Origin: an uncultured Bacteroidia bacterium
Lineage (GTDB): Bacteria > Bacteroidota > Bacteroidia > Bacteroidales > Prolixibacteraceae
Direction of reading: 5' to 3'
Length of the DNA stretch: 40,534 nt
Assembly (NCBI GenBank): GCA_903834845.1
Contig: CAILKW010000726.1
Location: 1-40,534, forward strand
Both the position numbers and the translations under genes were made by a program. Below are positions 3,065-38,933 of this stretch, in pieces (the first letter of the stretch is position 1; every line of letters starts with the position of its first letter). Under the pieces are notes generated by a model. That model saw nothing but the letters and a program-made list of their open reading frames with translations. It did not search any database and had not been told where the DNA came from.

Positions 3065-4894
3065 ATGAAAAAGATATTTACAAAAATAAAAACAGCGATA
3101 GCTTTTGCAGCTATTGCCGGAGGATTTCTCTTAGGCGGTTGTAAAGAATATCTCGACCAGGCGCCTGAAGCTTCAGTTAATCAGGAAGATGCATTTAAAA
3201 ATTTCACCAGCTTTCAGGGTTTTGTCGAAGGGTGTCAAAATCAGGTGGTTGATGTAGTGCGGACGGTTGACTTCGGCGACTATAATCTGGTTGATGAAAC
3301 TCGGAGGGCAGTAACCTTTGTGATGGGAAATGGTTTTGACAGTGGCGATTACTGGAGCTGGCAGGGTGGTTATGGATCCTATTTTGGAAGAACCGGTGCT
3401 TATAATTATACAAACATGCAAGATCCACTTAGTCCAAATGCAAAAAGCACCTGGTATGGTGGGTGGTACGCAATTCGCAGGGCCAACCTGGGTCTGGCCA
3501 ACCTGGATAAACTGGTGAATGCCACACAGGAAGAAAAAGATCTGATAAAAGGACAACTGTTATTTTTCAGGGCTTACTTTTATTTCACCATGATGCGTGA
3601 CTGGGGTGGGTTACCCTATTTGGACAAAGTGTTGGAGCCTACCGAGGAGATGAAATATCCCCGTTTGAACTACCTTCAGACTGCAACGAAAGCGGATGCC
3701 GATTTTGCTGAAGCTGCCAAATTATTACCCCTGGATTGGGACAAAATTGCGGCAGGGCAAAAAACCCTTGGCAATAACCGGCAACGGATCAACAAGATTA
3801 TGGCATTGGCCTTCCAGGCCAAAAACCTGTTGTATGCAGCTAGCCCTTTGATGAACAAGGAATCGACCGGTAGCGCTACCTATAATGTTGAACTTTGCAA
3901 AAAGGCGGCAGATTTGTTCGCGCAAGTAATTAGCACCAGCGAACAGTCCGGTATTTATACCCTTCAGCCCTGGGCTACCTATTCCGATATTTTTTACAGG
4001 GTTTCACCATCAAAGGATCTTCCCGGAGGTGCCGAGGTGATATTTAATGCCCCTTTTTATTTAACGGCATCGGGGAACACTAAAAATGACTGGGGGCTTC
4101 CCAACTGTGGATTTATAGCACAGACAGTTGGTGTGTGTGCCAATTATGTGAAAAACTGGGGGATGAAAAACGGTTTGCCCATCAGCGACCCTGCCTCGGG
4201 CTTTAACCCTGCCGACCCATGGAGCAACCGCGACCCACGGTTTTATAAGGCTATCGTGGTAGACGGGGATAAAGTATGCAACGCCACCTCCTCGGGAGGC
4301 GATCAGTTCTTTCAATCATCAAATAATGCAAGGCATCGTAGTGCGTCTAACAATATCACAGGCTTTATGTCGAATAAATATTGGGGTTTAACCTGTAACA
4401 AATTTGACAATGCCTGGCAAAACCAGAATTACCATTTTTTATGTCCTATTCTGCGTTTGGCCGATGTTTACTTGTTGTATGCTGAAGCTGTATTGCAAGG
4501 GTACGGTACACCTCAAAGCAGTGCTTCGGGAAGTATTACCGCTGTAGCTGCTGTGAATAAGGTTCGTGCCCGTGCAACGGTTCCCGATCTTGATGCGAAG
4601 TTTACCGCTTCAAAAGATGTTTTTATGGAACAGATTGTATTGGAACGCGCGGTGGAATTGTCCTTTGAAGCCCATCGCTGGAATGATTTACGCCGCTGGC
4701 TGAAAAATGGCGATCCGAGATACCTGGATAAAACCGAATTGCTGTTCGATCGTGACCCGGTTACCAAAAAGCCGATCAATATTCAGGAACGCCTGATGAT
4801 TCAGCGTGTTGTTTCGGATAAGCACAACTGGTTGCCGTTCCCCGTCAATACGGTCACGCTTTACAAGGAGTTCAAGCAGAATCCGGGTTGGTAA
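3065..4894 (+). CDS. SusD/RagB family nutrient-binding outer membrane lipoprotein
   Basis: Lipobox GGFLLGGC; SusD features (RANLGLANLDKL, KGQLLFFRAYFYFTMMRDWGGLPYLDKVL, VLERAVELSFEAHRWNDLRRW); directly follows SusC. Confidence 0.95.
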   Translation: MKKIFTKIKTAIAFAAIAGGFLLGGCKEYLDQAPEASVNQEDAFKNFTSFQGFVEGCQNQVVDVVRTVDFGDYNLVDETRRAVTFVMGNGFDSGDYWSWQGGYGSYFGRTGAYNYTNMQDPLSPNAKSTWYGGWYAIRRANLGLANLDKLVNATQEEKDLIKGQLLFFRAYFYFTMMRDWGGLPYLDKVLEPTEEMKYPRLNYLQTATKADADFAEAAKLLPLDWDKIAAGQKTLGNNRQRINKIMALAFQAKNLLYAASPLMNKESTGSATYNVELCKKAADLFAQVISTSEQSGIYTLQPWATYSDIFYRVSPSKDLPGGAEVIFNAPFYLTASGNTKNDWGLPNCGFIAQTVGVCANYVKNWGMKNGLPISDPASGFNPADPWSNRDPRFYKAIVVDGDKVCNATSSGGDQFFQSSNNARHRSASNNITGFMSNKYWGLTCNKFDNAWQNQNYHFLCPILRLADVYLLYAEAVLQGYGTPQSSASGSITAVAAVNKVRARATVPDLDAKFTASKDVFMEQIVLERAVELSFEAHRWNDLRRWLKNGDPRYLDKTELLFDRDPVTKKPINIQERLMIQRVVSDKHNWLPFPVNTVTLYKEFKQNPGW

Positions 4895-12774: not shown

Positions 12775-14040
12775 ATGAACAAACCATCAACCCATTTTCG
12801 CTGGATCATACTGAGCCTACTTTTTGTAGCTACCACCATTTTATACATTGACCGTTCAGCTTTAGGTATCCTGGCTCCGGAACTTCAGAAAAGCATTGGC
12901 TGGTCGGAAGAGCAATACGGCATCATCAACAGCGTGTTTATGATTGCTTATGCGCTGTGTTTTATCCTGATGGGCCGTTTGATTGACGTTATCGGAACCC
13001 GGAAAGGTTATTTGGTTTCAATCGGTATTTGGAGTATCGCTGCGCTTGGCCATTCACTGTCCCAGTCATGGGTGGGCTTTGCGGTTGCCCGTTTTTCTTT
13101 GGCAGTTGGTCAATCGGGCAGTTTTCCGTCAGCCATTAAAGCGGTTGCCGAGTGGTTTCCCAAAAAGGACCGGGCATTGGCAGTCGGGATTTTCAATGGC
13201 GGATCAAACATGGGCACCATACTTTCCCCGTTAATTATTCCGGTTTTGGTTCTGAATTTCAACAACTGGCGGGTTGGTTTTCTTTGGACATTTCCCATCA
13301 GTATCGTTTGGGTGTTGCTTTGGCTCAAATATTTCAGGAAACCAGAACACAGCCTGAATGTTTCGACAGAAGAACTTCAGTATATCAATTCAGACAGTAG
13401 TGAAAACGAAAATACCGAAAGAGTAGGATGGAAAGATATTCTTCCCCATCGTGGAGCCTGGGCGATTGCTGTGGCTAAATTTATGGCCGACCCCATCTGG
13501 TGGTTCTACCTATTTTGGGGCGCCAAATTTCTGAACGAAAAGTTTGGGTTGAACCTGAAAGAAATCGGGCTGCCATTTTTTACCATCTATCTGGCTTCTT
13601 GGGGATTGGGAATTTTCCTGGGATGGTTCTCGTCGAAGTTGATGAAAATCGGTTTTAGCCTGAATAAAGGCCGTAAGCTTGGATTGTTGGCCTGCGCATT
13701 GTTTGCCGTTCCGGTGGCTTTGGTTCCGCACACCGAAAATATTTGGCTGGCTGTTGGGCTAATTGCCCTTGCCGCCGGTGGTCACTGTGGCTGGTCGGCC
13801 AACGTATTCAGCCTAATGTCGGACATTTTTCCGAAGAAAGCAACCGGTACAGTTGCCGGTTTTGGCGGATTTGCAGGAGCTGTTGGTGGAGCCATCGTAG
13901 CCTTTTCGGTGGGCAAAATCCTTCAAAATATTGGTCCGGATGGTTATGCTATTCCGTTTGCAGTTGCCGGATGCGGATACCTGATTGCTTTGCTCATTAT
14001 CCACCTTTTGGTGCCTAAAATTAAAACGATAAATATATAG
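12775..14040 (+). CDS. MFS transporter, hexuronate/anion:cation symporter-like
   Basis: Multiple hydrophobic helices; ILYIDRSALGILAPELQKSIGWSEEQYGIINSVFMIAYAL, GQSGSFPSAIKAVAEWFPKKDRALAVGIFNGGSNMGTILSPL are typical of ExuT-like MFS. Confidence 0.88.
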   Translation: MNKPSTHFRWIILSLLFVATTILYIDRSALGILAPELQKSIGWSEEQYGIINSVFMIAYALCFILMGRLIDVIGTRKGYLVSIGIWSIAALGHSLSQSWVGFAVARFSLAVGQSGSFPSAIKAVAEWFPKKDRALAVGIFNGGSNMGTILSPLIIPVLVLNFNNWRVGFLWTFPISIVWVLLWLKYFRKPEHSLNVSTEELQYINSDSSENENTERVGWKDILPHRGAWAIAVAKFMADPIWWFYLFWGAKFLNEKFGLNLKEIGLPFFTIYLASWGLGIFLGWFSSKLMKIGFSLNKGRKLGLLACALFAVPVALVPHTENIWLAVGLIALAAGGHCGWSANVFSLMSDIFPKKATGTVAGFGGFAGAVGGAIVAFSVGKILQNIGPDGYAIPFAVAGCGYLIALLIIHLLVPKIKTINI

Positions 14041-14045
14041 ATCCC

Positions 14046-15839
14046 ATGAACACTTCTATACTACTCCTTTGCTTTGTATTCTTAAACCATGGATTGCCAT
14101 TACACGCTCAAAGCAAACACAATTATTGGAATCACCAAACAACTTTGCGTCCAGCAAGGATGCCTTTACCTGATAACATAGAATTGATACAACGTATCGA
14201 TCTGGATAAAGAGGGAGATCCTGATATACTTAAGTATACCATACTAAATGGCATACCAGTAATGTGGATTGATGACAATGACAACATGAAATGGACAGAT
14301 ATTGAAGGTGATATGGCCGGTGATTGTTTATGCATTGATAGAAACAAAGATGGATTATTTGCAGGCCCTGAAGATATCAGTATCGACTTTGTTGATTTTG
14401 ATAACAATGGTAAAGCCAATATGCAATGGGTTGTTGAAAACGGGAAGGCCGATATACGTTATAAAATGGATTGGATAAAAAGTAACATCATGGCTTTCAT
14501 TGATGAAGACCAGAAAGGTGTATTCAATTACATCGACTGGAACTTGCTAACCATGCGGCATTGGGAAAGAAACGGGCATAGCAATTTTTTTACCGATTAT
14601 CAGGGCAATACCACTTTTACAAAGGTGTGTACACCTTCATATCGTCTTTCTGATCTTCGATATAGTTGGGAGAATCCTTTTATCTTCTGGGACTTTGATC
14701 ATGATGGGCTTTCAGAAATGGCATTGCGAATGATTGATGCTCCGGAAGTAAGAAAAGATGGGGACGATCCGGTTTTTAAGAATGAAAAGAGTGAAGTTGA
14801 TGTTCGGTTTACGAAAAAGATTAGTTATGTAGCTGTATCCTATGATTTTGATAACGACAACGGACAGGGGAATGAACTTGATTTTGATATGACGCTTTGT
14901 TTCGAAGGTGATGGGTTTACATACGACGATCAGGTCAACAAATTTAAAAACATGAAAGGTTTGCCTGAAGCAAATCAATTATTATACGACAGTAGTTGGC
15001 GCAAGATCGATGAACTTATTTTTCCTAACCGTAAAACCGCACTTAATTTAACCTATAAAAGAGGGAAATGGAAAAGTTGTCGCTTTGTTTTCGATGAAGA
15101 CGATGATTGTAACCGATGGGAACGTGTTGAATTGTATGATCCAAAGCAACTATTTAGGATAGGCAAAAATATTGGGGGTATTGATAATAATCCTCAGGCT
15201 GATGCAGTTGGAGACAGGGGGGAATTTGATAAGGATTTTTCAGGGAAAGGCAATCTTTATATAGGCGCTTTTGATGGAAAAATCCACCTCTATGGGGCTG
15301 AGTGGGGAGCCTGGAGGATAGACCAAACAGCAACCTCGTTTCAAGGTTATGGAGGCTTATATGAACATTGGAACACTGAAAGATTACAGCATGCACCTGA
15401 TAAATTTGGAACTGTAAAATATACAGATACAAACAATAATGGTTTTATTGATTTGATTCAGTATGATTTAGACGGAGATACCATTTTTGAGGAATCGGTA
15501 TCGTTAAAAGACTTAAATATTGATGACCGCCGTCCTGTAATTTCAACGTCAGGGATGAGTTATCCGGATTATCAGAAGCTTTTCAAGTCAATTACTGACA
15601 AGGAATGGGAAAGGGCTCAATTTGCTATTTCACTCGCAGAAAATAAGGGGCAAACAACTAAGTGGTATGCCTTTTGGAAAAATCCACGCACTCTTCAGGA
15701 GAAATACGATTATGCCTTCTGGCTCAATTTTTACATTTACCAGGATTTGAGACAATTGGCAAAAACTTCGGGAGAAAACTTCTTGGTCAGTCAGATTGAT
15801 AAAGCCTATTATTCGGGAGATTGGCATCGAATCAAATAA
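14046..15839 (+). CDS. Secreted protein of unknown function with Asp-rich (Ca-binding-like) motifs
   Basis: Signal peptide MNTSILLLCFVFLNHGLPLHAQ; repeated DxDxDG-type motifs (DRNKDGLF, DFDHDGLSE, DTNNNGFIDLIQYDLDGDTIFEE). Confidence 0.7.
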   Translation: MNTSILLLCFVFLNHGLPLHAQSKHNYWNHQTTLRPARMPLPDNIELIQRIDLDKEGDPDILKYTILNGIPVMWIDDNDNMKWTDIEGDMAGDCLCIDRNKDGLFAGPEDISIDFVDFDNNGKANMQWVVENGKADIRYKMDWIKSNIMAFIDEDQKGVFNYIDWNLLTMRHWERNGHSNFFTDYQGNTTFTKVCTPSYRLSDLRYSWENPFIFWDFDHDGLSEMALRMIDAPEVRKDGDDPVFKNEKSEVDVRFTKKISYVAVSYDFDNDNGQGNELDFDMTLCFEGDGFTYDDQVNKFKNMKGLPEANQLLYDSSWRKIDELIFPNRKTALNLTYKRGKWKSCRFVFDEDDDCNRWERVELYDPKQLFRIGKNIGGIDNNPQADAVGDRGEFDKDFSGKGNLYIGAFDGKIHLYGAEWGAWRIDQTATSFQGYGGLYEHWNTERLQHAPDKFGTVKYTDTNNNGFIDLIQYDLDGDTIFEESVSLKDLNIDDRRPVISTSGMSYPDYQKLFKSITDKEWERAQFAISLAENKGQTTKWYAFWKNPRTLQEKYDYAFWLNFYIYQDLRQLAKTSGENFLVSQIDKAYYSGDWHRIK

Positions 15840-16660: not shown

Positions 16661-17830
16661 ATGAATAGTAGAGAACGAATTCAAATTACACTTGCACACA
16701 AGGAAGCCGACCGTATTCCATACGATTTGGCCGGAACAACGGTAACAGCAATAACCAGAAATGCTTATTTAGGGGCAATGCAACTTCGGGGATTGTCAAC
16801 CGAAATTGGTGATGATGAGATTGACCCCATTCAGCAAATTGTTACTCCGGCAGAAGAAAACCTGATTTTGTTGAAGTCGGACACTCGGAGGTTAGGGGCT
16901 CAGCGCATTACCGATTTCAGGAATAGCAAGCGAGTGAATGGAAACCTGGTAGAAGTGACCGATTTTTATGGATGTAACTGGAAATTCGAGCAAGGGCACG
17001 ATTTGTATTTTCACCTGGTATCCTCGCCGATTGAAAAAGCAGATTCATTGTCAGGAAACTTGCATTTGCTCCCACAAACCGATTGGGACAGCTACACCAA
17101 AATACTCCGTAACAATTTAAACGAACAGATTGGTAAAGTAGGCGATTTCTGTGGAATAGCCGATCGTAACACTGCCGGACTGACTGAAAACAGCTTGCGC
17201 ATCCGTGGTTACGAAAACTGGTTTATGGACACGATGATTGACCCCGATGGTGTGGAATCTTTGTTCGATCGTATTGTTGACGACAAGTTGCGCTATTGGG
17301 ATGCCATTATTGATTGGGCCATTGAAACCGGAAATACCGATAAAATTCAGGTGATTTCAGAGTGCGACGATTTGGGATCGCAAGCAACAACGATTCTCGA
17401 TCCGGATACTTTGCGGCAAATGGTTATCCCTCATTTTAAAACCATTTTTACGCATGTCAAAAAACGTTTGCCACACGTAAAAACCTTCATGCACAGTTGT
17501 GGCGCTATTCGCGAGATTCTTCCTGATTTGGTTGATGCCGGATTAGATATCCTGAATCCCGTTCAATTTACCGCAACCGGAATGGATTTAAAAGAGTTGA
17601 AACGTGATTTTGGCGACGTACTCACTTTTTGGGGAGGGGGAGTTGACACTCAATCAACGCTAAATAATGGCAGTCCACAGCAAGTTGCAGACGAAGTAAA
17701 ACGCATTATCGACATCCTTGCTCCGGGCGGTGGTTTCGTGTTTGCTCCTGTACACAATGTTCAAGACGACGTGTCGCCAGAGAACTTCTGGGCTATGTGG
17801 GACACCCTTCAGCTATACGGCAAATATTAA
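16661..17830 (+). CDS. Uroporphyrinogen decarboxylase (URO-D)-superfamily protein, MtaA/CmuA-like methyltransferase fold
   Basis: NSRERIQITLAHKEADRIPYDLAGT opening, FMHSCGAIREILPDLVDAGLDILNPVQ, LTFWGGGVDTQSTLNNGSPQQVADEVKRIIDIL. Confidence 0.85.
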   Translation: MNSRERIQITLAHKEADRIPYDLAGTTVTAITRNAYLGAMQLRGLSTEIGDDEIDPIQQIVTPAEENLILLKSDTRRLGAQRITDFRNSKRVNGNLVEVTDFYGCNWKFEQGHDLYFHLVSSPIEKADSLSGNLHLLPQTDWDSYTKILRNNLNEQIGKVGDFCGIADRNTAGLTENSLRIRGYENWFMDTMIDPDGVESLFDRIVDDKLRYWDAIIDWAIETGNTDKIQVISECDDLGSQATTILDPDTLRQMVIPHFKTIFTHVKKRLPHVKTFMHSCGAIREILPDLVDAGLDILNPVQFTATGMDLKELKRDFGDVLTFWGGGVDTQSTLNNGSPQQVADEVKRIIDILAPGGGFVFAPVHNVQDDVSPENFWAMWDTLQLYGKY

Positions 17831-17847: not shown

Positions 17848-19410
17848 ATGAATAAATCAAAAATCGTTTTCATTCTTTTACTCACATTTTGCCTAAATGG
17901 CTTTGCCGGGCAAAAAGGAAGAACATTGAAAAATCCACTCTTTGTCTTTAACAACGGATTGAACAAACAAGACTTGCCGTTTATCCCTTACGATGAACAG
18001 GCCACTATGTTGAAAAAATATGGGTTCGATGGAATCGAACATCGCGAAACTTCGGGAATGATGGAGTTGAAAGAAGCCCTTGGGAAACAGGGACTGAAAA
18101 TTTGCGCCGACTATCTCAAAATCGACATCGACCAGAAAGAACCTTACCTTCCGGAGTGGAAAGAAGTTATACCCAAGCTGAAGGGGACCGGAATCATTCT
18201 TTGGTGTCACCTGCATTCGGCTAAATTTAAACCATCTGACGAGGCGGCCGATACGGAGGTCGTACCCATCCTTCAGGAACTGGCCGATTTTGCTAAACCT
18301 TATGGTGTGAAACTGGCTATTTATCCGCATATCTGGTTTCTGGCCGAAAAAGCTGAAGATTCCTACAGGATTGCCCAAAAGGTAAATCGCGAGAATGTGG
18401 GTGCAGTGTTTAACCTGCCACACTTTTTGAGAACCGATTCTGAAGAGAATATCGACAAAGTTATCAGTCTGATTCTGCCGAAGCTATTTGCAGTTTCTAT
18501 CTGTGGGGCCGAAGGCGGCGATACCAATGACATGGATTGGGATCGGTTAATCCAGCCTTTGGGGAAAGGCACTTTTGATGTTTACCGTTTGGTGGAATTG
18601 TTGGCTGACAAGGGCTTTCAGGGATCTTTTGGTTTGCAATGCTATGGACTAAAGGACGTTCCGGAAAACTATCTTTCACAAAGCGGCGAAGTCTGGAAGT
18701 CATTCAAACAACGGTATGCTCAACCCCTAAATTCGTTAGATTCTAAGGAAAAGAGCAGTGGGTGGAAATTGTTGTTCGATGGAAAATCCACCAAACAATG
18801 GCGGGCTATCAACGAAAAATCGTTTCCGAAAGTTGGTCGGAAGGTTGAAAACGGGGAATTGTGTATTTCCGGCGATAATGTTCTGGCCGAATCGATTAAT
18901 ACCGGTGATATTGTCACGGAAAAGATGTATGGCAATTTCGAACTGGTGTGGGATTGGAAAATGCTGACTAAAGGTGGAAACAGTGGATTGAAATATTTTG
19001 TGATTGAAGGATTGTCAGTAAACCACAAACATGGAGAAGGGCCTGAATATCAATTGTTAGATGATAAAAACCACCCTTGGATGCTTGAAGGAAAAATGAA
19101 ACCTAACGATTTTCATACCGTTGGTTCCCTGTACGAATTGTATGCAGCATCGGCCGATAAACGCCCCAGCCCACTTGGTTTGTGGAACCAAAGCAGGATT
19201 GTGAGTAACAATAATCATATTGAACACTGGCTAAACGGCCAAAAAGTATTGGAATATGAACGCGGCAGCAGCGATTTTAAGGAACAGATCGCCAAAAGTA
19301 AAATGGCAGGAATACCCGGTTTTGGTTTAGCCAAAGAAGGTCATATTTTGTTGCAGGATCATGGAAGTATAGTTCATTTCAGGAATATAAAAATCAAGGA
19401 ACTTAAATAA
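17848..19410 (+). CDS. Secreted fusion: sugar phosphate isomerase/epimerase-like TIM barrel + C-terminal DUF1080 (3-keto-disaccharide hydrolase-like)
   Basis: Signal peptide MNKSKIVFILLLTFCLNGFAGQ; TIM-barrel part MLKKYGFDGIEHRE...LKICADYLKID...GVKLAIYPHIWF...NVGAVFNLPHFLR; DUF1080 part SSGWKLLFDGKSTKQWR...NFELVWDWKMLTKGGNSGLKYFV...HFRNIKIKEL. Confidence 0.85.
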   Translation: MNKSKIVFILLLTFCLNGFAGQKGRTLKNPLFVFNNGLNKQDLPFIPYDEQATMLKKYGFDGIEHRETSGMMELKEALGKQGLKICADYLKIDIDQKEPYLPEWKEVIPKLKGTGIILWCHLHSAKFKPSDEAADTEVVPILQELADFAKPYGVKLAIYPHIWFLAEKAEDSYRIAQKVNRENVGAVFNLPHFLRTDSEENIDKVISLILPKLFAVSICGAEGGDTNDMDWDRLIQPLGKGTFDVYRLVELLADKGFQGSFGLQCYGLKDVPENYLSQSGEVWKSFKQRYAQPLNSLDSKEKSSGWKLLFDGKSTKQWRAINEKSFPKVGRKVENGELCISGDNVLAESINTGDIVTEKMYGNFELVWDWKMLTKGGNSGLKYFVIEGLSVNHKHGEGPEYQLLDDKNHPWMLEGKMKPNDFHTVGSLYELYAASADKRPSPLGLWNQSRIVSNNNHIEHWLNGQKVLEYERGSSDFKEQIAKSKMAGIPGFGLAKEGHILLQDHGSIVHFRNIKIKELK

Positions 19411-19432
19411 ACCCAATTAAAAATATAACCCA

Positions 19433-20755
19433 ATGAAATCAACAAGACGAACATTTCTGAAAAATACAGCATGGGGAACTGCCGGAACGCTTGTCATTCC
19501 GACCATTCTTCCGTCAAGTGTTTTTGGGAACTCAGCGCCATCAAATCGTATCAATATCGCTGTTATCGGATGTGGCCGCCAGTCGGTTACTCCCAATATA
19601 CCTCAACTTTTGGCATCACAGCATGCCCAATTGGTTGGTGTTTGCGATTTGGATGCCTGGCGGTTGGGCAATGCGGTGAAACAGGTGAACAACGAATATT
19701 CGAAGCAAAAAGGAACAGCTTACAATGGGTGCAAAAGCTACAGCGACTATCGCGATGTGATGCGGAATAAAGATATTGATGCCGTTATGATTTCGCTGCC
19801 CGACCACTGGCATGTGCCAATGGCCATTGAAGCAGCCCGTGCCGGGCAACACATATCGCTAGAAAAACCAATTTCAACATGTATCGGTCATGGCCGCAAA
19901 CTTGTTGAAGCCATCAAAAAGCACAAAGTCATCACCCGTAACGATAGTGAATTCCGCACCTTGCCTAAATTTTCGCGCGCTGTCGAATTGGTCAGAAATG
20001 GAAGGATTGGGAAAATACAACGCATTTACGTAGCTGTTCCTCCTGAATCAAATGGACCGGCATTACCGCCTCAACCCACGATGCCAGTTCCAACAGAGTT
20101 AAATTATGACATGTGGTTAGGACCCGCCTGGGAAGTTCCTTATACTGAAAAACGTGTTCATGCCATTAAAGCCTATGGCCGCCCGGGATGGATGAGGGTC
20201 AGCGATTATTGTAACGGCATGATCTCGAACTGGGGAGCTCACCTGATGGGAATTGCGCAATGGGGCCACAATACTGAATATACTGGTCCGGTTTCAATTG
20301 AAGGTACTGGTGATTTTGATAAAGGGCTTTGGAATACGATGAACCGCTTCGATATCAAATATCAATTTGCCGATGGAGTGGAGGTTTTCTTCAAGATTGA
20401 ACGGCCTTATGTTCGTTTTGAAGGTACTGAAGGTTGGATTGAAATTGAATACATGGATAAACTAACTGCCAGTTCGCAGTCTATCCTTGATTCTGAAATC
20501 GGGCCAAACGAAATGCAGATTCGTGATTTGCCCAGCGATAAAGACGATTTTCTGCTGGCCATTAAAGCCAACAAACCATCGCTTGAGCCACTTGAAACTG
20601 CTCACCGAACCATTTCAATGTGCCAGTTGGGTCTGATCTCTGTCAAAACTGGAGCGAAATTGACATGGGATCCTGCTAAAGAAGAAATCATTGGCGATAA
20701 TGCTGCTACTGCAATGTTGGATATTCCAATTCGTGAGAAGTATTTCAAATTTTGA
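19433..20755 (+). CDS. Gfo/Idh/MocA family oxidoreductase, Tat-exported
   Basis: Twin-arginine signal STRRTFLKNTAWGTAGTLVIP; INIAVIGCGRQ Rossmann motif; AARAGQHISLEKPIS (EKP motif). Confidence 0.93.
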   Translation: MKSTRRTFLKNTAWGTAGTLVIPTILPSSVFGNSAPSNRINIAVIGCGRQSVTPNIPQLLASQHAQLVGVCDLDAWRLGNAVKQVNNEYSKQKGTAYNGCKSYSDYRDVMRNKDIDAVMISLPDHWHVPMAIEAARAGQHISLEKPISTCIGHGRKLVEAIKKHKVITRNDSEFRTLPKFSRAVELVRNGRIGKIQRIYVAVPPESNGPALPPQPTMPVPTELNYDMWLGPAWEVPYTEKRVHAIKAYGRPGWMRVSDYCNGMISNWGAHLMGIAQWGHNTEYTGPVSIEGTGDFDKGLWNTMNRFDIKYQFADGVEVFFKIERPYVRFEGTEGWIEIEYMDKLTASSQSILDSEIGPNEMQIRDLPSDKDDFLLAIKANKPSLEPLETAHRTISMCQLGLISVKTGAKLTWDPAKEEIIGDNAATAMLDIPIREKYFKF

Positions 20756-28652: not shown

Positions 28653-29354
28653 ATGAAACGATCAGAAATTAATGAAATTATGAAAAATGGTCTCAATTTT
28701 ATTGAGAAAGAAATGAAATTCCTGTTGCCACCATTTGCAAAGTGGTCACCTGACGACTGGCATCAGAAAGGCGAAGAATCTGTCGAAATTATTGACCAGC
28801 AGCTCGGTTGGGACATCACTGACTTTGGTTCAGAAAATTTCAGTGAAGTTGGTTTATTGCTTTTTACTATTCGCAACGGAAGCTTTGAGGAACTAAAAAA
28901 AATCAACGGAAAGATTTATGCTGAAAAGGCCATGATCGTTCAGGAGGGGCAGATAACACCTATCCATTTTCATTACCAGAAAATGGAAGACATCATTAAC
29001 AGGGGTGGCGGGGAACTGGTCATCCAGCTCTGGAATTCAACTGTTGATGAGTGTTTGGACTTAGATTCTGACGTCATCGTTAGCGTTGATTCGGTTAAAA
29101 ATAAAGTAAAAGCAGGAGGAACAATTACTTTAAAGCCTGGCGAGTCAGTTTGCCTTCCACAGCGGTTATACCATAAATTCTGGGGAAAGAAAGGAACTGG
29201 AACTGTATTCGTAGGAGAGGTCAGCCGTGTAAATGACGATTACGTGGATAACCATTTCTACGAAAAAGTGGGGCGTTTTGCTGAAATCGAAGAAGATGTT
29301 GAACCGCTCCATTTATTGTACGGTGATTATTCAAATTATTACAAATGTAAATGA
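28653..29354 (+). CDS. D-lyxose ketol-isomerase family protein
   Basis: MKRSEINEIMKNGLNFIEKEMKFLLPPFAKWSPDDW; EKAMIVQEGQITPIHFHYQKMEDIINRGGGELVIQLWN; GGTITLKPGESVCLPQRLYHKFWG cupin-type metal-binding motifs. Confidence 0.85.
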   Translation: MKRSEINEIMKNGLNFIEKEMKFLLPPFAKWSPDDWHQKGEESVEIIDQQLGWDITDFGSENFSEVGLLLFTIRNGSFEELKKINGKIYAEKAMIVQEGQITPIHFHYQKMEDIINRGGGELVIQLWNSTVDECLDLDSDVIVSVDSVKNKVKAGGTITLKPGESVCLPQRLYHKFWGKKGTGTVFVGEVSRVNDDYVDNHFYEKVGRFAEIEEDVEPLHLLYGDYSNYYKCK

Positions 29355-29375
29355 GGGTAAAGAAATACAGCATAT

Positions 29376-30107
29376 ATGAATAAAATAAATAAGAAAAGGA
29401 TCAGACTAATTTGGATGGTTTCTGTTTTGTCGGGTATCTGTTTTTTGGGATATGGGGGATATTCACAAAATAACCCGGCATCATTGGTAGGATTGAAAAA
29501 GACAGATCGTAATCCACCTGATTCAGTAAAGTATTTTATTGGAAGAAACGAAGTATTTAAAAATTTGCCAAATGATACAGACGAGGTGATAATGCTTGGG
29601 AATTCGCTGACGCATAACTTCGAATGGCATGAAATATTCAAAAATGTGAACATTAAAAACCGGGGCATCAATAGCGATATCACAAGAGGTATCCTACAAC
29701 GCTTAAATGAGGTTGTTGAAAGTAAACCTAAAAAAATATTTATCGAGATTGGGGTAAATGATTTATTACATGGACTTACAATTGATTCTGTATATGATAA
29801 TTATAAATTAATTATCCAGACGATTAAATTAAAAAGTCCAAAGACACGGATATACATACAAAGTGTTCTTCCTAATAACTGGAAAATTTATAACACAGAT
29901 AAGCCGGTAATCAATAGTGTCATCATTTTGAATGACAAGCTCAAAGATTATTGCCAAAACAATGGTCTGATCTATATTGATCTGTACTCAAAATTTCTTT
30001 TTGAGCAACGACTTAACCCTATTTATGACTGCGGTGATAAACTTCACTTGAGTGGAAAAGGGTATCTGTTATGGTGTAGCCTAATTAAAGAATATATCTA
30101 CGATTAG
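29376..30107 (+). CDS. SGNH/GDSL-family hydrolase
   Basis: VIMLGNSLTHNFEWHEIF, NIKNRGINSDITRGILQRL, IFIEIGVNDLLHG, DKLHLSGKGYLLW (D-x-x-H). Confidence 0.85.
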   Translation: MNKINKKRIRLIWMVSVLSGICFLGYGGYSQNNPASLVGLKKTDRNPPDSVKYFIGRNEVFKNLPNDTDEVIMLGNSLTHNFEWHEIFKNVNIKNRGINSDITRGILQRLNEVVESKPKKIFIEIGVNDLLHGLTIDSVYDNYKLIIQTIKLKSPKTRIYIQSVLPNNWKIYNTDKPVINSVIILNDKLKDYCQNNGLIYIDLYSKFLFEQRLNPIYDCGDKLHLSGKGYLLWCSLIKEYIYD

Positions 30108-30149
30108 CGCGCTAACTTTTATTCACACATCAAATTTAATTTATAGATT

Positions 30150-31151
30150 ATGCCATTAGTAATTGATAAAAATGAAGTCCTGGCTATTTATTCTGAAGCA
30201 GCTCAGCAGAAATGGGTCATTCCCTGTTTTTGTTCTGAAAACCTGACAACAACTGAAGCCATACTTGCAGCAGTAAACGAATATGGAAATAGTATTCAAA
30301 TTTCGAATTTGCCGGTTACCATTGCCATCACCAATCTTTATTCACATAGAAGCCAGAGTGTAAATTACACCCACACGCAAAACTGGGAAGTTGGATTAAG
30401 ATTATTTATTGAAGATCTGAAGGTGTTAACCACTGAATGCAGTCCTTTCAGGAATTTGCGTGTAATGCTCCACCTTGACCATATTCAACATGATACCGAT
30501 CGCGAGTTGTTGAGTTGGGATATGAAGCAATTTTCATCCATCATGTATGATGCATCTGGCTTAGGTCTGGATGAAAATATTAAACTAACCCGGCAGTTTG
30601 TTGAAAAACATGGGCATGAAATTGTAATAGAAGGAGCATGCGATGAAATTATTGATTTTGGAAGTGGAGGCAATGAATTAACTTCTCCTGAAAATGCAGA
30701 AAAATACCTGAATCAAACGGGTTGTGATTTTATTGTAGCTAATTTAGGTACTGAACATCGCGCCAATTCATCAGAATTGCACTATTACGGTGATTTGGCA
30801 AGGCAGATAAAATCAAGAATTGGAGAACGAATTGTACTTCATGGAGCGTCTTCTGTTGGATCCGATCAAATACGAAAACTCTTCGACGATGGCGTCTGCA
30901 AAGTAAACATCTGGACCATCCTTGAGCGTGACAGTACAAATAAACTCTTGGAGCAACTTGTTTCCAATGCATCAAAAGTAGTTGGCAGTTCATTTGTGAA
31001 AGAGATGCAATTTCAAGGGTTACTTGGCGACAGTATTGACTCGGAAAGCAATAAATCGATCGACTATTATACCACACTCTACCGGCAATCCATCATTTTT
31101 GAAGAAATGAAAAAGATTGTTACCAGTTACCTTTCCATCTGGTATTTATAA
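30150..31151 (+). CDS. Class II fructose-bisphosphate (ketose-bisphosphate) aldolase family protein, divergent
   Basis: WVIPCFCSENLTTTEAILAAV, VMLHLDHIQHD metal/catalytic motif, IVANLGTEHRA, IVLHGASSVGSDQIRKLFDDGVCKVNIWT. Confidence 0.83.
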   Translation: MPLVIDKNEVLAIYSEAAQQKWVIPCFCSENLTTTEAILAAVNEYGNSIQISNLPVTIAITNLYSHRSQSVNYTHTQNWEVGLRLFIEDLKVLTTECSPFRNLRVMLHLDHIQHDTDRELLSWDMKQFSSIMYDASGLGLDENIKLTRQFVEKHGHEIVIEGACDEIIDFGSGGNELTSPENAEKYLNQTGCDFIVANLGTEHRANSSELHYYGDLARQIKSRIGERIVLHGASSVGSDQIRKLFDDGVCKVNIWTILERDSTNKLLEQLVSNASKVVGSSFVKEMQFQGLLGDSIDSESNKSIDYYTTLYRQSIIFEEMKKIVTSYLSIWYL

Positions 31152-31196
31152 TTTACTGCGAAAGAAAATGACAATCTAACTAAGGCAATAATCAAC

Positions 31197-32705
31197 ATGA
31201 GTTATTTAGGTTTAGATATTGGTACAAGCGGCTGTAAGGCTGTTGTTTTTAACGAATACGGCGAAGAAATCGCTGCTGCTTTCAGAGAATATCCGTTAAT
31301 TACACCAAAGGAAGGTTGGGTAGAACTTGATTCGGAAGAGGTTTGTACCAGGTGTTTCGAGGTCATCAAAGAAGTTGCCTTAAAAACGACCGCAGATCCT
31401 GTTCAGGCTATGGGAATTTCTTCACAGGGTGAAGCGTTTACTCCTGTCGATAAAAATGATACGATACTGGGGAACGGGATGGTCTCTTCAGATACCAGGG
31501 CATCGAAGATTGTGGGTGAGTTCTGTGCTGAATTTGGCGCTGAAAAATTGTATTCCATCACCGGTCACACGGCTTATCCCATGTTTTCGCTGTTCAAGCT
31601 GATTTGGATCAAACAAAATAAGCCTGAACTATGGAAAATAACCGCAAAATTCCTGTGTTTTGAAGATTTAATGCATCTGAAACTTGGTCTTGATCCGGCG
31701 ATTGGATATCCTTTGGCCGGAAGAACGATGATGTTCAATGTCATTGATCATCAATGGGACAAAGAAATCCTGGCATCGGTTGGATTGGAGCCCGGTCAGC
31801 TGGCCAGACCTTTACCATCAGGATCAATCGTGGGAACTATTTCGGCAAAAATTGCGTCTCAGCTTGGTTTGCCTGATCAGGTAGTTGTCGTTGCAGGAGG
31901 TCACGATCAGTCTTGTGGCGCACTGGGTGCCGGAATTGTTTCGAAAGGAATGGCAATGTATGCCACCGGTACCGTTGAATGCATTACACCAGCATTTGAA
32001 AAGCCTGTTTTTGGAGATAATCTTTTCAGAAACAATTACTGTACCTATGATTTTGCTATTCCGGGTATGTACACAACTGTTGCTTACAGTTTGACCGGCG
32101 GAAATATTCTAAAGTGGTACAGGGACGAGTTCGCATTTCAGGAAAAGGAAGTTGCAAAGCAAAGCGGACGAAATATTTATGAAGTCATCCTAGATTCGTT
32201 GCCTGAGAAGCCGTCAAAATTATTGGTGTTGCCGTATTTTACCCCTACCGGAACACCTTATTTCGACAGTTCAATAACAGGTGCGATTATTGGGTTGAGG
32301 TTTAATACTTCACGGGAAGAAATATTGCGGGCCTTATTGGAAGGTGTTGCGTTTGAAATGCGCCTGAATTTATCGATTCTCGAAAAATCGGGAATTGTGA
32401 TTGATGAATTACGGGCAATCGGTGGCGGAGGTAAAAGTAAAGTATGGACACAATTAAAAGCCAATGTGTTGAATAAGCCAATTACAACCGTTGCAGTAAC
32501 CGAGGCAGGCTGTTTCGGTGTGGCAATACTTGCTAAATCTGCTGTTACCGGCATTACGATTGACACAATTGTATCGGAATGGGTAAAAACTTCCCAAACG
32601 ATTTTTCCTCAGGAAGAATTTGCTGAATACTACGAAAAGCAATTCCAGACGTACCTGAAATTATATCCGGCATTAAAATCAATAAAATACAAGGATGAAC
32701 AGTAA
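31197..32705 (+). CDS. FGGY-family carbohydrate kinase (xylulokinase-like)
   Basis: MSYLGLDIGTSGCKAVVFNEYGEEI; AMGISSQGEAFTPVD; VVVAGGHDQSCGALGAG; RALLEGVAFEMR...ELRAIGGGGKSKVWTQLKANVLNKPI. Confidence 0.92.
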   Translation: MSYLGLDIGTSGCKAVVFNEYGEEIAAAFREYPLITPKEGWVELDSEEVCTRCFEVIKEVALKTTADPVQAMGISSQGEAFTPVDKNDTILGNGMVSSDTRASKIVGEFCAEFGAEKLYSITGHTAYPMFSLFKLIWIKQNKPELWKITAKFLCFEDLMHLKLGLDPAIGYPLAGRTMMFNVIDHQWDKEILASVGLEPGQLARPLPSGSIVGTISAKIASQLGLPDQVVVVAGGHDQSCGALGAGIVSKGMAMYATGTVECITPAFEKPVFGDNLFRNNYCTYDFAIPGMYTTVAYSLTGGNILKWYRDEFAFQEKEVAKQSGRNIYEVILDSLPEKPSKLLVLPYFTPTGTPYFDSSITGAIIGLRFNTSREEILRALLEGVAFEMRLNLSILEKSGIVIDELRAIGGGGKSKVWTQLKANVLNKPITTVAVTEAGCFGVAILAKSAVTGITIDTIVSEWVKTSQTIFPQEEFAEYYEKQFQTYLKLYPALKSIKYKDEQ

Positions 32706-33921
32706 AAAAACGAACAAACTGGTTTTATTTGGAGCCGGAAAAATCGGAAGATCGTTTATCGGTCAATTATTCAGTTGCGGGGGTTACGAGGTTGTTTTTA
32801 TTGACATTAATGAACAAATGATCAATGAATTAAACAGGCGCACCAACTATAACGTAATTATCAGGGGTGAAAAGGAAGAACACATAAATGTCAGGAATGT
32901 CCGTGGTGTTAATGCACGGGATGAACAAACAGTGGTAGATGAGATTGCAAGTGCTGAAATCCTGGCAGTTTCAATTGGACAAAACGGATTACCGGGAATA
33001 ATACCACTCCTTGCGAAAGGTTTGTTAAAACGATATTCCGAAGACCCCAAACAGGCATTGGACATTATCATTGCTGAAAACCTTCGCAATGCCGCTGATT
33101 ATTTCCGGAGTGAATTAATCAAACTTTTACCAGAGAATTACCCCTTTGAGCAATTGGTCGGATTAATTGAAACCAGCATTGGCAAAATGGTTCCGATCAT
33201 GTCGAATAAGGATGTTGAAGAGGATGTTTTACAAGTATTTGCGGAGTCATATAATATCCTGATACTGGACAAAAAGGCATTTAGAAATCCTATACCGCAA
33301 ATTGCAGGGTTGTCACCTAAAGAAAACATAAAGGCATGGGTTGACCGTAAGTTGTTCATTCATAATCTGGGACATGCCACCGCTGCATATTTGGGATATA
33401 TCTGCAACCCAAATTTTAAATATCTGTATGAAGCCCTTGAAGTACCTGAAATATTCATTGCGGTACGCGAAACCATGTTGCAGGCAGCAACCATTTTGCA
33501 TAAGAAATATCCTGCTGATTTTACCCTGGAAGCATTGACTGATCACGTAGATGACCTTCTCTTTCGTTTCAAGAATAGATCATTGGGTGACACCATTTTT
33601 AGGGTTGGTTGTGATCTGACCCGTAAACTTGGATCTAAGGATCGACTTGCCGGAGCAATACATTTGGCGCTGGAAGTAAAACTCCCATACGACAGGATTC
33701 TCTTTAGTTTAATTTGTGGATGCTATTTTCGGGCAACTGACGAAAACGGGCAAATGTTACCGGGAGATATTGAGTTTGCCAGGATATTGAATCTGGGATT
33801 GACTGAGGTACTGACAAACATCTGTTGGATCGACGAAATTAAGGATAACCTTTTGAAGGTTATTAAAAGGTATGAAGGTGAAATGTTTAGCACACAAAAA
33901 TTGTTATCTGAAGTAGTTTAA
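32695..33921 (+). CDS. Mannitol-1-phosphate 5-dehydrogenase-like polyol/uronate dehydrogenase
   Basis: LVLFGAGKIGRSFIGQLFSCGGYEVVFIDINEQMINELNRRTNYNV; IIAENLRNAADYFR; LIETSIGKMVPIM; KLFIHNLGHATAAYLGY. Start overlaps the FGGY stop (ATGAACAGTAA), suggesting translational coupling. Confidence 0.85.
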   Translation: MNSKKTNKLVLFGAGKIGRSFIGQLFSCGGYEVVFIDINEQMINELNRRTNYNVIIRGEKEEHINVRNVRGVNARDEQTVVDEIASAEILAVSIGQNGLPGIIPLLAKGLLKRYSEDPKQALDIIIAENLRNAADYFRSELIKLLPENYPFEQLVGLIETSIGKMVPIMSNKDVEEDVLQVFAESYNILILDKKAFRNPIPQIAGLSPKENIKAWVDRKLFIHNLGHATAAYLGYICNPNFKYLYEALEVPEIFIAVRETMLQAATILHKKYPADFTLEALTDHVDDLLFRFKNRSLGDTIFRVGCDLTRKLGSKDRLAGAIHLALEVKLPYDRILFSLICGCYFRATDENGQMLPGDIEFARILNLGLTEVLTNICWIDEIKDNLLKVIKRYEGEMFSTQKLLSEVV

Positions 33922-36264: not shown

Positions 36265-38933
36265 ATGAAAAAAATATTATTCTGTCTTATTCTTGGGTCG
36301 TCCTTAATTAATGCGATTGCTGGCCAAAGTAATGTTGCATTTTATGTATCCCCGCAAGGGAAGGATACAAATCCCGGCACTTTAGACAAGCCCTTTGCAA
36401 CGATTGAAAAGGCGCGTGATATTGTTCGGGCAGAGCTAAAGTCAAATAAAAATGAACCAATCACGGTTTTTTTACGCCAAGGTACTTATAATCTCAAAAG
36501 GAGCTTCGAACTGAATGATCTTGATTCGGGGAGTGAAAACTCGCCTGTTGTTTACAGCGCATATCCCAATGAAGAAGTTCGTTTCACTGGCGGAATTTCA
36601 ATTCCGGTTGAAAAGGCAAAAAAAGTTACCGATAAAGCAATTCTGTCAAAGCTGGTTGTGGCTGCGAGGGATAAAATTCTTCAGGTAAACTTAAAGTCAT
36701 TGGGAATCAGCAACTATGGAGTCCTTCACCCCAGAGGATTTGGCCGCCCTTATCAACCGGCATCAATGGAACTTTTTTGTAACCGCGAGGGAATGCAACT
36801 TTCCCGCTGGCCGAATGATAGTTTAGTCCGAATTGGTACAGTTCTCGATCCTGGTTCTGTACCCAGGAATGGCGATTATTCACATCGTGGAGGCAGGTTT
36901 ACTTATGATGTCCGGCGGCCTGCCCGATGGACGAAAGCCAAAGATATCTGGATTTCAGGTTTTTTCAACACGGGTTATGCTGATGATGCCGTAAGGATTG
37001 CAAATTTGGATTTGAACAACAAAACAATTACCACCGAACAGGAGACCATGTACGGTTTTGCTGGGAGCAAAGAATTCCAGAGTTGGTACGCTTTTAATCT
37101 TCTGGAAGAAATTGACCGGACCGGTGAATATTTTATCGACAGGGTGCGTGGTATCCTTTACTTTTTCCCTCCAGCAGAAAACTTGCAGACTATTGAATTA
37201 TCGGTTTTGGAAGGACCCCCGGTCGTTATTGAAAATGGTTTGCACATTCATTTCCGGAATATCACCTTCGAATGTTCCAGGGGAATGGGAATGTATATTG
37301 AAGGTGGCAAGGCTGATTTTGTTGAAAACTGTGTTTTTCGGAATCTTGGTTTGGTAGCGGTTTGTATTGGGAAAGGGATTCTTCCGTTTAAGGATTTACA
37401 GCATTCAGGAACAGGAACACCCACATCGCGCCTTTTGGGAAACATCAGCGCCCATAGCTATGACCATACTACTTTCAACCGTGAAGCCGGTACAGACCAT
37501 GTCATTTCAGGTTGTCATATTTACAATACAGGTTCCGGGGGAATCAGCCTCAGTGTCGGCAACAGACTGACTCTTGAAAAAGGGAACAACAGGGTTGAGA
37601 ATTGCCGGATTGAAACCGATAACGCCAAACTGCGCGAAATATTTTACAGTTCGCTCTACTTTACCAAAATGTACCCCATGCTATGGATGGATGTTGACGG
37701 ACAATACCGGGGTGGCCGATCAAAAAGTACATACAGCAAAAGGGTATAACTATTACGGTGGTCACATGGGATTTTGGGATGTTTACCGGGCAGCCTATCC
37801 ACTCCTGATGATCACCAATCCTGATGTGGTAAATGACGTTGTAAAAACAAGTCTGGCATTTTATAAGGACTGTGGGCAACTTCCGGTTTTACCCGTTTTT
37901 GGTGTTGAAACATACCAGATGACTGGCTTGCATGTGATGCAGTTTATTGCCGATTGTTATTCCAAAGGAATTCGCAATTATGATGCCGAAGCCGTATATG
38001 CTGCCATGAAAAACACCATGTTGCGAGACACCACCGGCTTTTCGATGCGCTATTTCACCGGATTGAAAAACTACAAAAAGTATGGTTACGTGCCGGCCGA
38101 TCTCGAAATGGAAGCTACCGCACGCACCCTTGACTATGCCTATAACGACTGGGGCATAGCCCAAATTTCCAGGATGTTAGGCAAAACCGACGATTACCAA
38201 TATTTTATTAAAAGAGCCGAATCATACAAAAAATGTGTTTGACCCGTCAACCGGTTTTATGCGCGGAAGATTAGCCGATGGAAGTTGGCGCACTCCTTTC
38301 GACCCTTATTCTTCAGGACATCGCAGGGATGATTTTTGCGAAGGAAATGCCTGGCAATGGTCATTTTCAGTGGCTCATGATGTAAGAGGACTGGCAAAAC
38401 TATACGGCGGAAACAACAAATTTTGCGATAAGCTTGACAGCCTGTTCAAGGCATCGTCCAAAATTGCAGGCAAAAATGCATCAGGCGATATATCTGGCTT
38501 GATTGGGCAGTACGCGCATGGAAATGAATCAGGTCATCATATCGTTTATATGTACAACGAATTGGGTGAACCAAAAAAACGCAACGTTATGTGAATCAAA
38601 TATTGACAACACTCTATGATTCCACTCCTGATGGAATTTGTGGCAATGAAGACACAGGGCAGATGAGTGCCTGGTATATTTTTAGTTCATTGGGGTTTTA
38701 CCCGATGAACCCAGTTTCAGGTAAGTACCAGATGGGGGCACCACTTTTTGATAAGGCTAAATTCAATTACCTTCAGGAAGGGTTTTTCAATAAAAGCAAA
38801 CAACTTGTCGGAATCCAATATCTATGTGAAAAAAGTTACTCTGAACGGTCAGAAATTAGACCGTACTTATATCCCATTTAAAGAACTATTAAATGGAGGT
38901 GAGCTTGTGTTTGATATGACTGGTAAAGACTAA
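36265..38933 (+). pseudogene. Chimeric pseudogene: beta-helix (GH141-like) N-terminal part fused to GH92 C-terminal remnant, with several frameshifts
   Basis: ORF 36265-37749 starts as a beta-helix protein (VAFYVSPQGKDTNPGTLDKPFATIEKARDIV) but ends in GH92 sequence (ETDNAKLREIFYSSLYFTKMYPMLWMDVDGQYRG). GH92 homology continues in other frames in ORFs 37574-38242, 38235-38594, 38591-38881 and 38748-38933. Confidence 0.9.
37600..38933 (+). pseudogene. GH92 remnant (about the C-terminal 60%), split over three frames
   Basis: Segments align in order to the intact GH92 at 26245-28569: GFWDVYRAAYPLLMITNPDV, DYQYFIKRAESYK/VFDPSTGFMRGRLADGSWRTPFDPYSS, GICGNEDTGQMSAWYIFSSLGFYP, NIYVKKVTLNGQ. Confidence 0.9.

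Follow-up and report, generated by a model that had tools for sequence, protein, structure and literature searches.

A secreted fusion of a metal-ligand-less xylose-isomerase-like barrel and a DUF1080 domain beside a Tat-type oxidoreductase in a Prolixibacteraceae PUL

Glycosidic bonds can be cleaved by successive oxidation, elimination, hydration and reduction, a route described only recently, for which the barrel eliminases tested to date need Mn. The barrels of AtOGE, the C-glycoside eliminases (CGE) and AtHYD act on 3-keto-glycosides and 2-hydroxy-3-keto-glucal. BT2156–BT2160 of Bacteroides thetaiotaomicron is presumably a disaccharide/3-keto locus with DUF1080 and Gfo/Idh/MocA proteins in the periplasm. 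The genetics of this 3-keto locus have been reported (PMC9007349, PMC11300592), with BT2157 termed a 3-ketotrehalose hydrolase, and Caulobacter genetics support a DUF1080 protein being the periplasmic 3'-ketolactose hydrolase (PMC9007349). A hydration-deficient B. thetaiotaomicron lyase variant, H275N, was used in a study of 2-hydroxy-3-keto-glucal (PMC13273386), and the xanthan backbone has been put forward as the target of a planctomycete DUF1080 protein (PMC5673643). In AtOGE, Mn is bound by His132, Asp163, His189 and Glu233, the catalytic residue is His134, and the H134A and H189A variants have little or no activity, H189A retaining <0.1% (PMC10628242).

Here we analysed a 40,534-nucleotide stretch from an uncultured Prolixibacteraceae bacterium (contig CAILKW010000726.1; hereafter, the window), in which one open frame on the + strand (17848–19410; ATG start, 520 aa) encodes both a barrel and a DUF1080 domain. 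The protein begins with a putative Sec-type signal peptide, MNKSKIVFILLLTFCLNGFAG (17848–17910, +), read by eye from the sequence; comparison of all fusions revealed a hydrophobic N terminus in each. Pfam and fold matches identified a xylose-isomerase-like TIM barrel of a metal-ligand-less subfamily (17935–18717, +), with AP_endonuc_2 (PF01261) at residues 55–266 scoring 67.7 bits against a cut-off of 31.1, and a DUF1080 or 3-keto-glycoside eliminase/hydratase-like domain (18727–19407, +), with 3keto-disac_hyd (PF06439) at residues 305–517 scoring 144.2 bits against a cut-off of 26.8. The DUF1080 half has no signal peptide of its own. The conserved part of unfused exported DUF1080 proteins starts with N-x-L-x-x-x-E, and unfused barrels terminate a few residues beyond W-K-x-Y-K-K-R-Y; at the fusion junction these two ends lie about 3 residues apart, a clean join. 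AlphaFold modelled the whole chain with a pLDDT of 92.7 and a pTM of 0.87, so the arrangement of both domains is predicted with confidence. A first-pass annotation of this DNA had described a signal peptide, a TIM barrel and a C-terminal DUF1080 domain in one protein and had proposed structure prediction of both domains; the open frame, Pfam and inspection confirm the description, and the prediction returned a confident fold. Chance or misassembly is ruled out because the same fusion occurs in five genomes, and misassembly is further disfavoured because the fusions form a single clade in each domain tree and the model is confident across both domains. The fusion is real, was correctly described and comes from a known kind of pathway.

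We found six fusions, in searches that included a genome-contig scan able to detect close relatives only: that of the window, one on another contig of the same genome (C247, 70% identity), one in Mariniphaga sp. Bin2_8 (G008, about 80%), and those of G021 (69%), G365 and G167, the last host belonging to another family of the same order. The first-pass annotation asked how often the fusion occurs: rarely, since only 4 of the 140 family genomes carry it, with five genes between them, and one further gene lies in another family. The barrel subfamily is present in 26 of the 140 family genomes (a few through distant matches only) and, outside the family, in one other genome only among 295 class and 396 phylum genomes, samples that overlap. 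Two further copies of the subfamily were seen in an Emticicia MAG, and barrels standing alone behind a hydrophobic leader peptide are retained in many genomes. DUF1080 occurs in 135/140 family genomes, many of which hold over ten copies, and 32 times in the window's own genome. The fusions form one clade in the barrel tree, with strong support (100/99), and in the DUF1080 tree, with weaker support (90/77). Repeated independent fusion is not supported by these single clades, and the trees are most simply read as a rare fusion with a single origin. Two other candidates differ in architecture: in one (G358:C9; L118:2013–3695), near a GH92 gene, an esterase-like alpha/beta hydrolase is linked to a xylose-isomerase-like barrel of another kind; the other is a Haliea DUF1080 protein with an NHL match (L035).

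For the DUF1080 half, a structure search returned 3hbk as the closest solved fold (47% identity, TMt 0.90), followed by 4jqt and 3u1x, all three entered as putative hydrolases. The BT2157 structures 8tda, 8rr2 and 9fbe align with TMt values of 0.74–0.75 at an identity of only about 29%, and carry the PDB titles 3-keto-2-hydroxy-glucal hydratase or 3-keto-glycoside eliminase/hydratase. His505, in a QDHG motif (19360–19362, +), corresponds to BT2157 His275, as mapped via the 9fbe chain; this chain, solved with a glycal, has QDNG where 8rr2 and 8tda have QDHG, and probably represents H275N. Both His505 and the EYQ-LDD motif are retained in the fusion. With a score above the PF06439 cut-off, a modelled fold like that of BT2157 and the hydration histidine in place, this half can be assigned to the putative DUF1080 eliminase/hydratases. 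Tandem double-DUF1080 proteins of 450–460 aa, resembling 4jqt, were seen in loci of several relatives (L003, L058, L063 and others).

The barrel half matches IolI (1i60, TMt 0.72) and the A. tumefaciens hydratase AtHYD (8ro4) in a structure search with the model; a profile search of the PDB found no solved structure of the subfamily itself, the best match being IolI at 50 bits. Alignment with other barrels of the same genome revealed that all four superfamily metal ligands, E/D/H/E, are replaced: Tyr159 stands for the first ligand Glu/His, next to His161 at the AtOGE His134 position (18322–18330, +); Asn189 stands for the ligand Asp, close to His192 (18412–18423, +); Ser217 for the ligand His (18496–18498, +); and Gln264 for the last ligand Glu (18637–18639, +). 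Across 25 relatives, spanning 31–79% identity to the window protein, Y159, H161, E167, N189, H192 and Q264 are all invariant, and position 217 is Ser, Asn or Thr. The other xylose-isomerase-like barrels of the genome mostly carry E/H, D, H and E at the ligand sites, and most have E-x-H or H-x-H where the window barrel has Y159-x-H161; in G140, a barrel within a BT2158-type cluster likewise retains E/D/H/E. His161 was assigned to the AtOGE His134 site by aligning the Y-P-H, E-x-H and H-x-H motifs rather than from a solved structure. Because HMMER opens a two-residue gap beside Y159 relative to IolI, placement of Y159, which relies on the common E-x-H/H-x-H motif, is slightly less certain than that of the other three sites.

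Only 26 of the 290 columns in the barrel alignment are invariant. Three fixed exchanges at metal sites are therefore unlikely to have arisen through drift, and the presence of Y159, H161, E167, N189, H192 and Q264 among these columns indicates that the barrel pocket is under selection. A decayed barrel is rejected on the same count, with three of the four exchanged positions among the 26, and from the alignment it is more likely that the metal site was re-tooled than that it is dead. Of the hallmarks of the metal-dependent eliminases and hydratases (AtOGE, CGE), the barrel has the fold and the catalytic histidine and lacks the four ligands, so it cannot work by the Mn-dependent mechanism of AtOGE. 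The first-pass annotation had taken the barrel for a working isomerase-like lyase or hydratase of known type, and had named loss of active-site residues in one domain as evidence against its proposal; the exchange of all four ligands (Y159, N189, S217 and Q264) is precisely such a loss for the barrel. This failure of the metal test is the most interesting part of the fusion. We know of no metal-free catalysis in the xylose-isomerase-like fold.

Starting 22 bp after the fusion's stop (19410), a 440-aa Gfo/Idh/MocA oxidoreductase (19433–20755, +; PF01408 and PF19051) carries a Tat-like motif, STRRTFLK, whose R5, R6 and F8 show little or no variation among 22 homologues. Coordinates, Pfam and motif all agree with the Tat-type enzyme originally described at this spacing. 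The PF01408 Rossmann domain scores 65.8 bits against a cut-off of 24, and E144, K145 and H270 are invariant in the 22 homologues; when catalytic residues are checked, both the Lys of the EKP motif (Lys145) and His270 are kept in the oxidoreductase, as is the hydration histidine of the DUF1080 half (His505). Against NF058561, the BT_2158 equivalog model, the oxidoreductase reaches 126.1 bits, far below the cut-off of 750, which places it in a different subfamily from BT2158; its proposed C3 oxidation is accordingly drawn from superfamily and context.

A Gfo/Idh/MocA gene directly adjoins the fusion in 6 of 6 cases, and for unfused barrels it is the next gene or one ORF away in 20/25, the remaining five being without a nearby Gfo gene or cut by a contig end. 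As the 56 Gfo/Idh/MocA genes of the 8.2-Mb genome make up ~1% of its genes at most, this adjacency is far above chance. BT_2158-family glycoside 3-dehydrogenases occur in the barrel clusters of G357 (855 bits) and G002 (852 bits; cut-off 750), and the G357 cluster also holds DUF1080. Emticicia (L033) shows the unfused counterpart of the fusion, with separate genes for DUF1080, Gfo and the barrel, all three in a row. In addition to DUF1080 and Gfo, this Emticicia locus (L033:142–10625) encodes two barrels of the metal-less kind, a fucosidase-family protein and a PQQ dehydrogenase carrying a cytochrome domain; the PQQ dehydrogenase is a possible alternative periplasmic oxidant.

Two cassette partners were absent from the first-pass annotation: an MFS transporter of the sugar-acid (galactonate-transporter-like) group (12775–14040, +) and a URO-D family protein (16661–17830, +), both assigned by Pfam and conserved in synteny. 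The transporter scores 215.9 bits against NCBIfam TIGR00893, under the cut-off of 395, and no signal peptide was seen in the URO-D sequence. G021 and G365 share the order MFS – URO-D – fusion – Gfo, as does, with another Gfo type, C247 of the window's own genome; in the window, two extra genes lie between MFS and URO-D. Unfused clusters have the order MFS – URO-D – Gfo – barrel in G381 and G402, with the MFS gene on the other side in G006, and GH88 or an aldo/keto reductase adjoins the cassette in some genomes. The second fusion of the same genome (L066:10147–11757; G000:C247) comes with MFS, URO-D, an aldo/keto reductase, GH88 and the different Gfo type. The URO-D protein, members of which occur in many relatives' barrel/Gfo cassettes, has an HxC motif (HSCG) and carries HN at the site where MtaA-type methyltransferases presumably have their third Cys.

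The cassette lies in a PUL, with SusD genes at 3065 and 7960 and TonB-receptor plug proteins at 4 and 4888; GH97 and GH92 are both present by Pfam, as first annotated, together with SusC/SusD pairs. What connects GH97/GH92 and the oxidative route to one glycan is their co-location. Following GH92, genes for a D-lyxose isomerase, a class II aldolase, an FGGY kinase and a mannitol-dehydrogenase-family protein (28653–33921) suggest that mannose/ketose or sugar acids are broken down downstream of the PUL. A beta-helix ORF (36265–37749) runs into a GH92 fragment at its end, and more GH92 pieces follow in other frames, 38235–38594 corresponding to GH92 positions 240–348; the region 36265–38900 represents either a second GH92 that is truncated and frameshifted or errors of assembly. 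The window also encodes a secreted, Asp-rich protein of 597 aa with DLDxDGDPD-like repeats (14046–15839), for which we found no Pfam or PDB match and only a poor predicted structure (pLDDT 50.7); 4 of the 41 related genomes contain homologues of 46–57% identity, one of them a second copy in its own genome (G000:C516).

We favour, with confidence and doubt about evenly balanced, a model in which the fusion is an exported enzyme of an oxidise–cleave–rehydrate glycoside route whose barrel works metal-free on the same keto-sugar; its reactions, substrate and product are what we infer. The Tat-exported Gfo/Idh/MocA enzyme would oxidise the glycosyl C3 in the periplasm, and the DUF1080 half would cleave the resulting 3-keto-glycoside by elimination and hydration, like BT2157. 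The barrel half would act without metal on the oxidoreductase's keto-sugar, or only bind it, with His161, His192 and Glu167 as candidate acid–base residues and Tyr159, Asn189 and Gln264 binding the sugar at the former metal position. Its step may be an epimerisation, or else whichever of elimination and hydration DUF1080 performs poorly on this linkage. The MFS transporter would import the sugar so released, and its cytoplasmic processing would involve the URO-D protein; the transporter family and GH88 hint weakly that the product could be a sugar acid. More tentatively, the barrel could be a metal-independent catalytic branch of the fold acting on 3-keto-sugars, making the fusion a bifunctional periplasmic enzyme that passes a reactive keto-sugar or glycal between its sites. 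As for the overall interpretation first put forward, membership of the 3-keto-glycoside pathway is borne out by the BT2157-like DUF1080 half with its histidine, the adjoining Gfo gene and the BT_2158-family enzyme in two relatives' clusters; the periplasmic location is supported by predicted signal sequences, and the PUL setting also holds, but the barrel as an isomerase-like enzyme of known type does not, given the loss of its metal ligands.

The barrel might instead be a non-catalytic sugar-binding or docking pseudoenzyme that holds the keto-sugar or docks Gfo, leaving cleavage to DUF1080 alone. All four metal ligands are gone, and the barrel usually adjoins a Gfo gene even where DUF1080 is missing, as would suit a Gfo partner protein; however, all 25 relatives share His161 at the AtOGE His134 site, His192, Glu167, Tyr159 and Gln264, and stand-alone barrels with leaders persist in many genomes, beyond what a scaffold needs. 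We consider this explanation possible but doubtful. Much less credible is the originally annotated model left unchanged, with both domains active in known ways and the barrel a metal-dependent isomerase or eliminase. Superfamily and Pfam membership and the presence of AtHYD among the structural relatives speak for it, but E/D/H/E is exchanged in every relative (Y/N/Q, with S/N/T at 217), and AtOGE keeps <0.1% of its activity after losing a single ligand in H189A (PMC10628242), which makes this model highly improbable.

A different division of labour would have the barrel as the catalytic half, outside the 3-keto pathway, and DUF1080 as a CBM66-like carbohydrate-binding module or an ordinary hydrolase. 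DUF1080 does overlap CBM66 models, and action on the xanthan backbone has been proposed in a planctomycete (PMC5673643). Yet His505 and the EYQ-LDD motif are kept, a Gfo/Idh/MocA gene stands beside every fusion, and unfused relatives cluster with BT_2158-family enzymes, once together with DUF1080, so that we regard this arrangement as unlikely. 

An exported branch in which the catalytic histidine is conserved and every metal ligand exchanged allows a direct test of whether the fold can do this chemistry without metal, and the fusion and its MFS/URO-D cassette point to pathway steps after cleavage.

Compared with the described systems, the DUF1080 half resembles BT2157 (8tda, 8rr2, 9fbe) in fold, PF06439 family, QDHG histidine and secretion; BT2157 stands alone, whereas the window domain is preceded by a barrel and a linker only a few residues long, has no signal peptide of its own and is about 29% identical. 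The barrel shares its fold, a histidine at the catalytic position and an oxidoreductase in the gene cluster with AtOGE, the C-glycoside eliminases and AtHYD. AtOGE and the C-glycoside eliminases use Mn held by His/Glu-Asp-His-Glu (PMC10628242), whereas the window barrel has Tyr-Asn-Ser-Gln and is exported. Like the glycoside 3-dehydrogenase BT2158 (NF058561), the oxidoreductase is an exported member of the Gfo/Idh/MocA superfamily with the catalytic Lys and His, but it differs in scoring 126 bits against the cut-off of 750. Unlike BT2156–BT2160, the window locus combines fused genes, a metal-less barrel and URO-D and MFS partners within a GH97/GH92 PUL.
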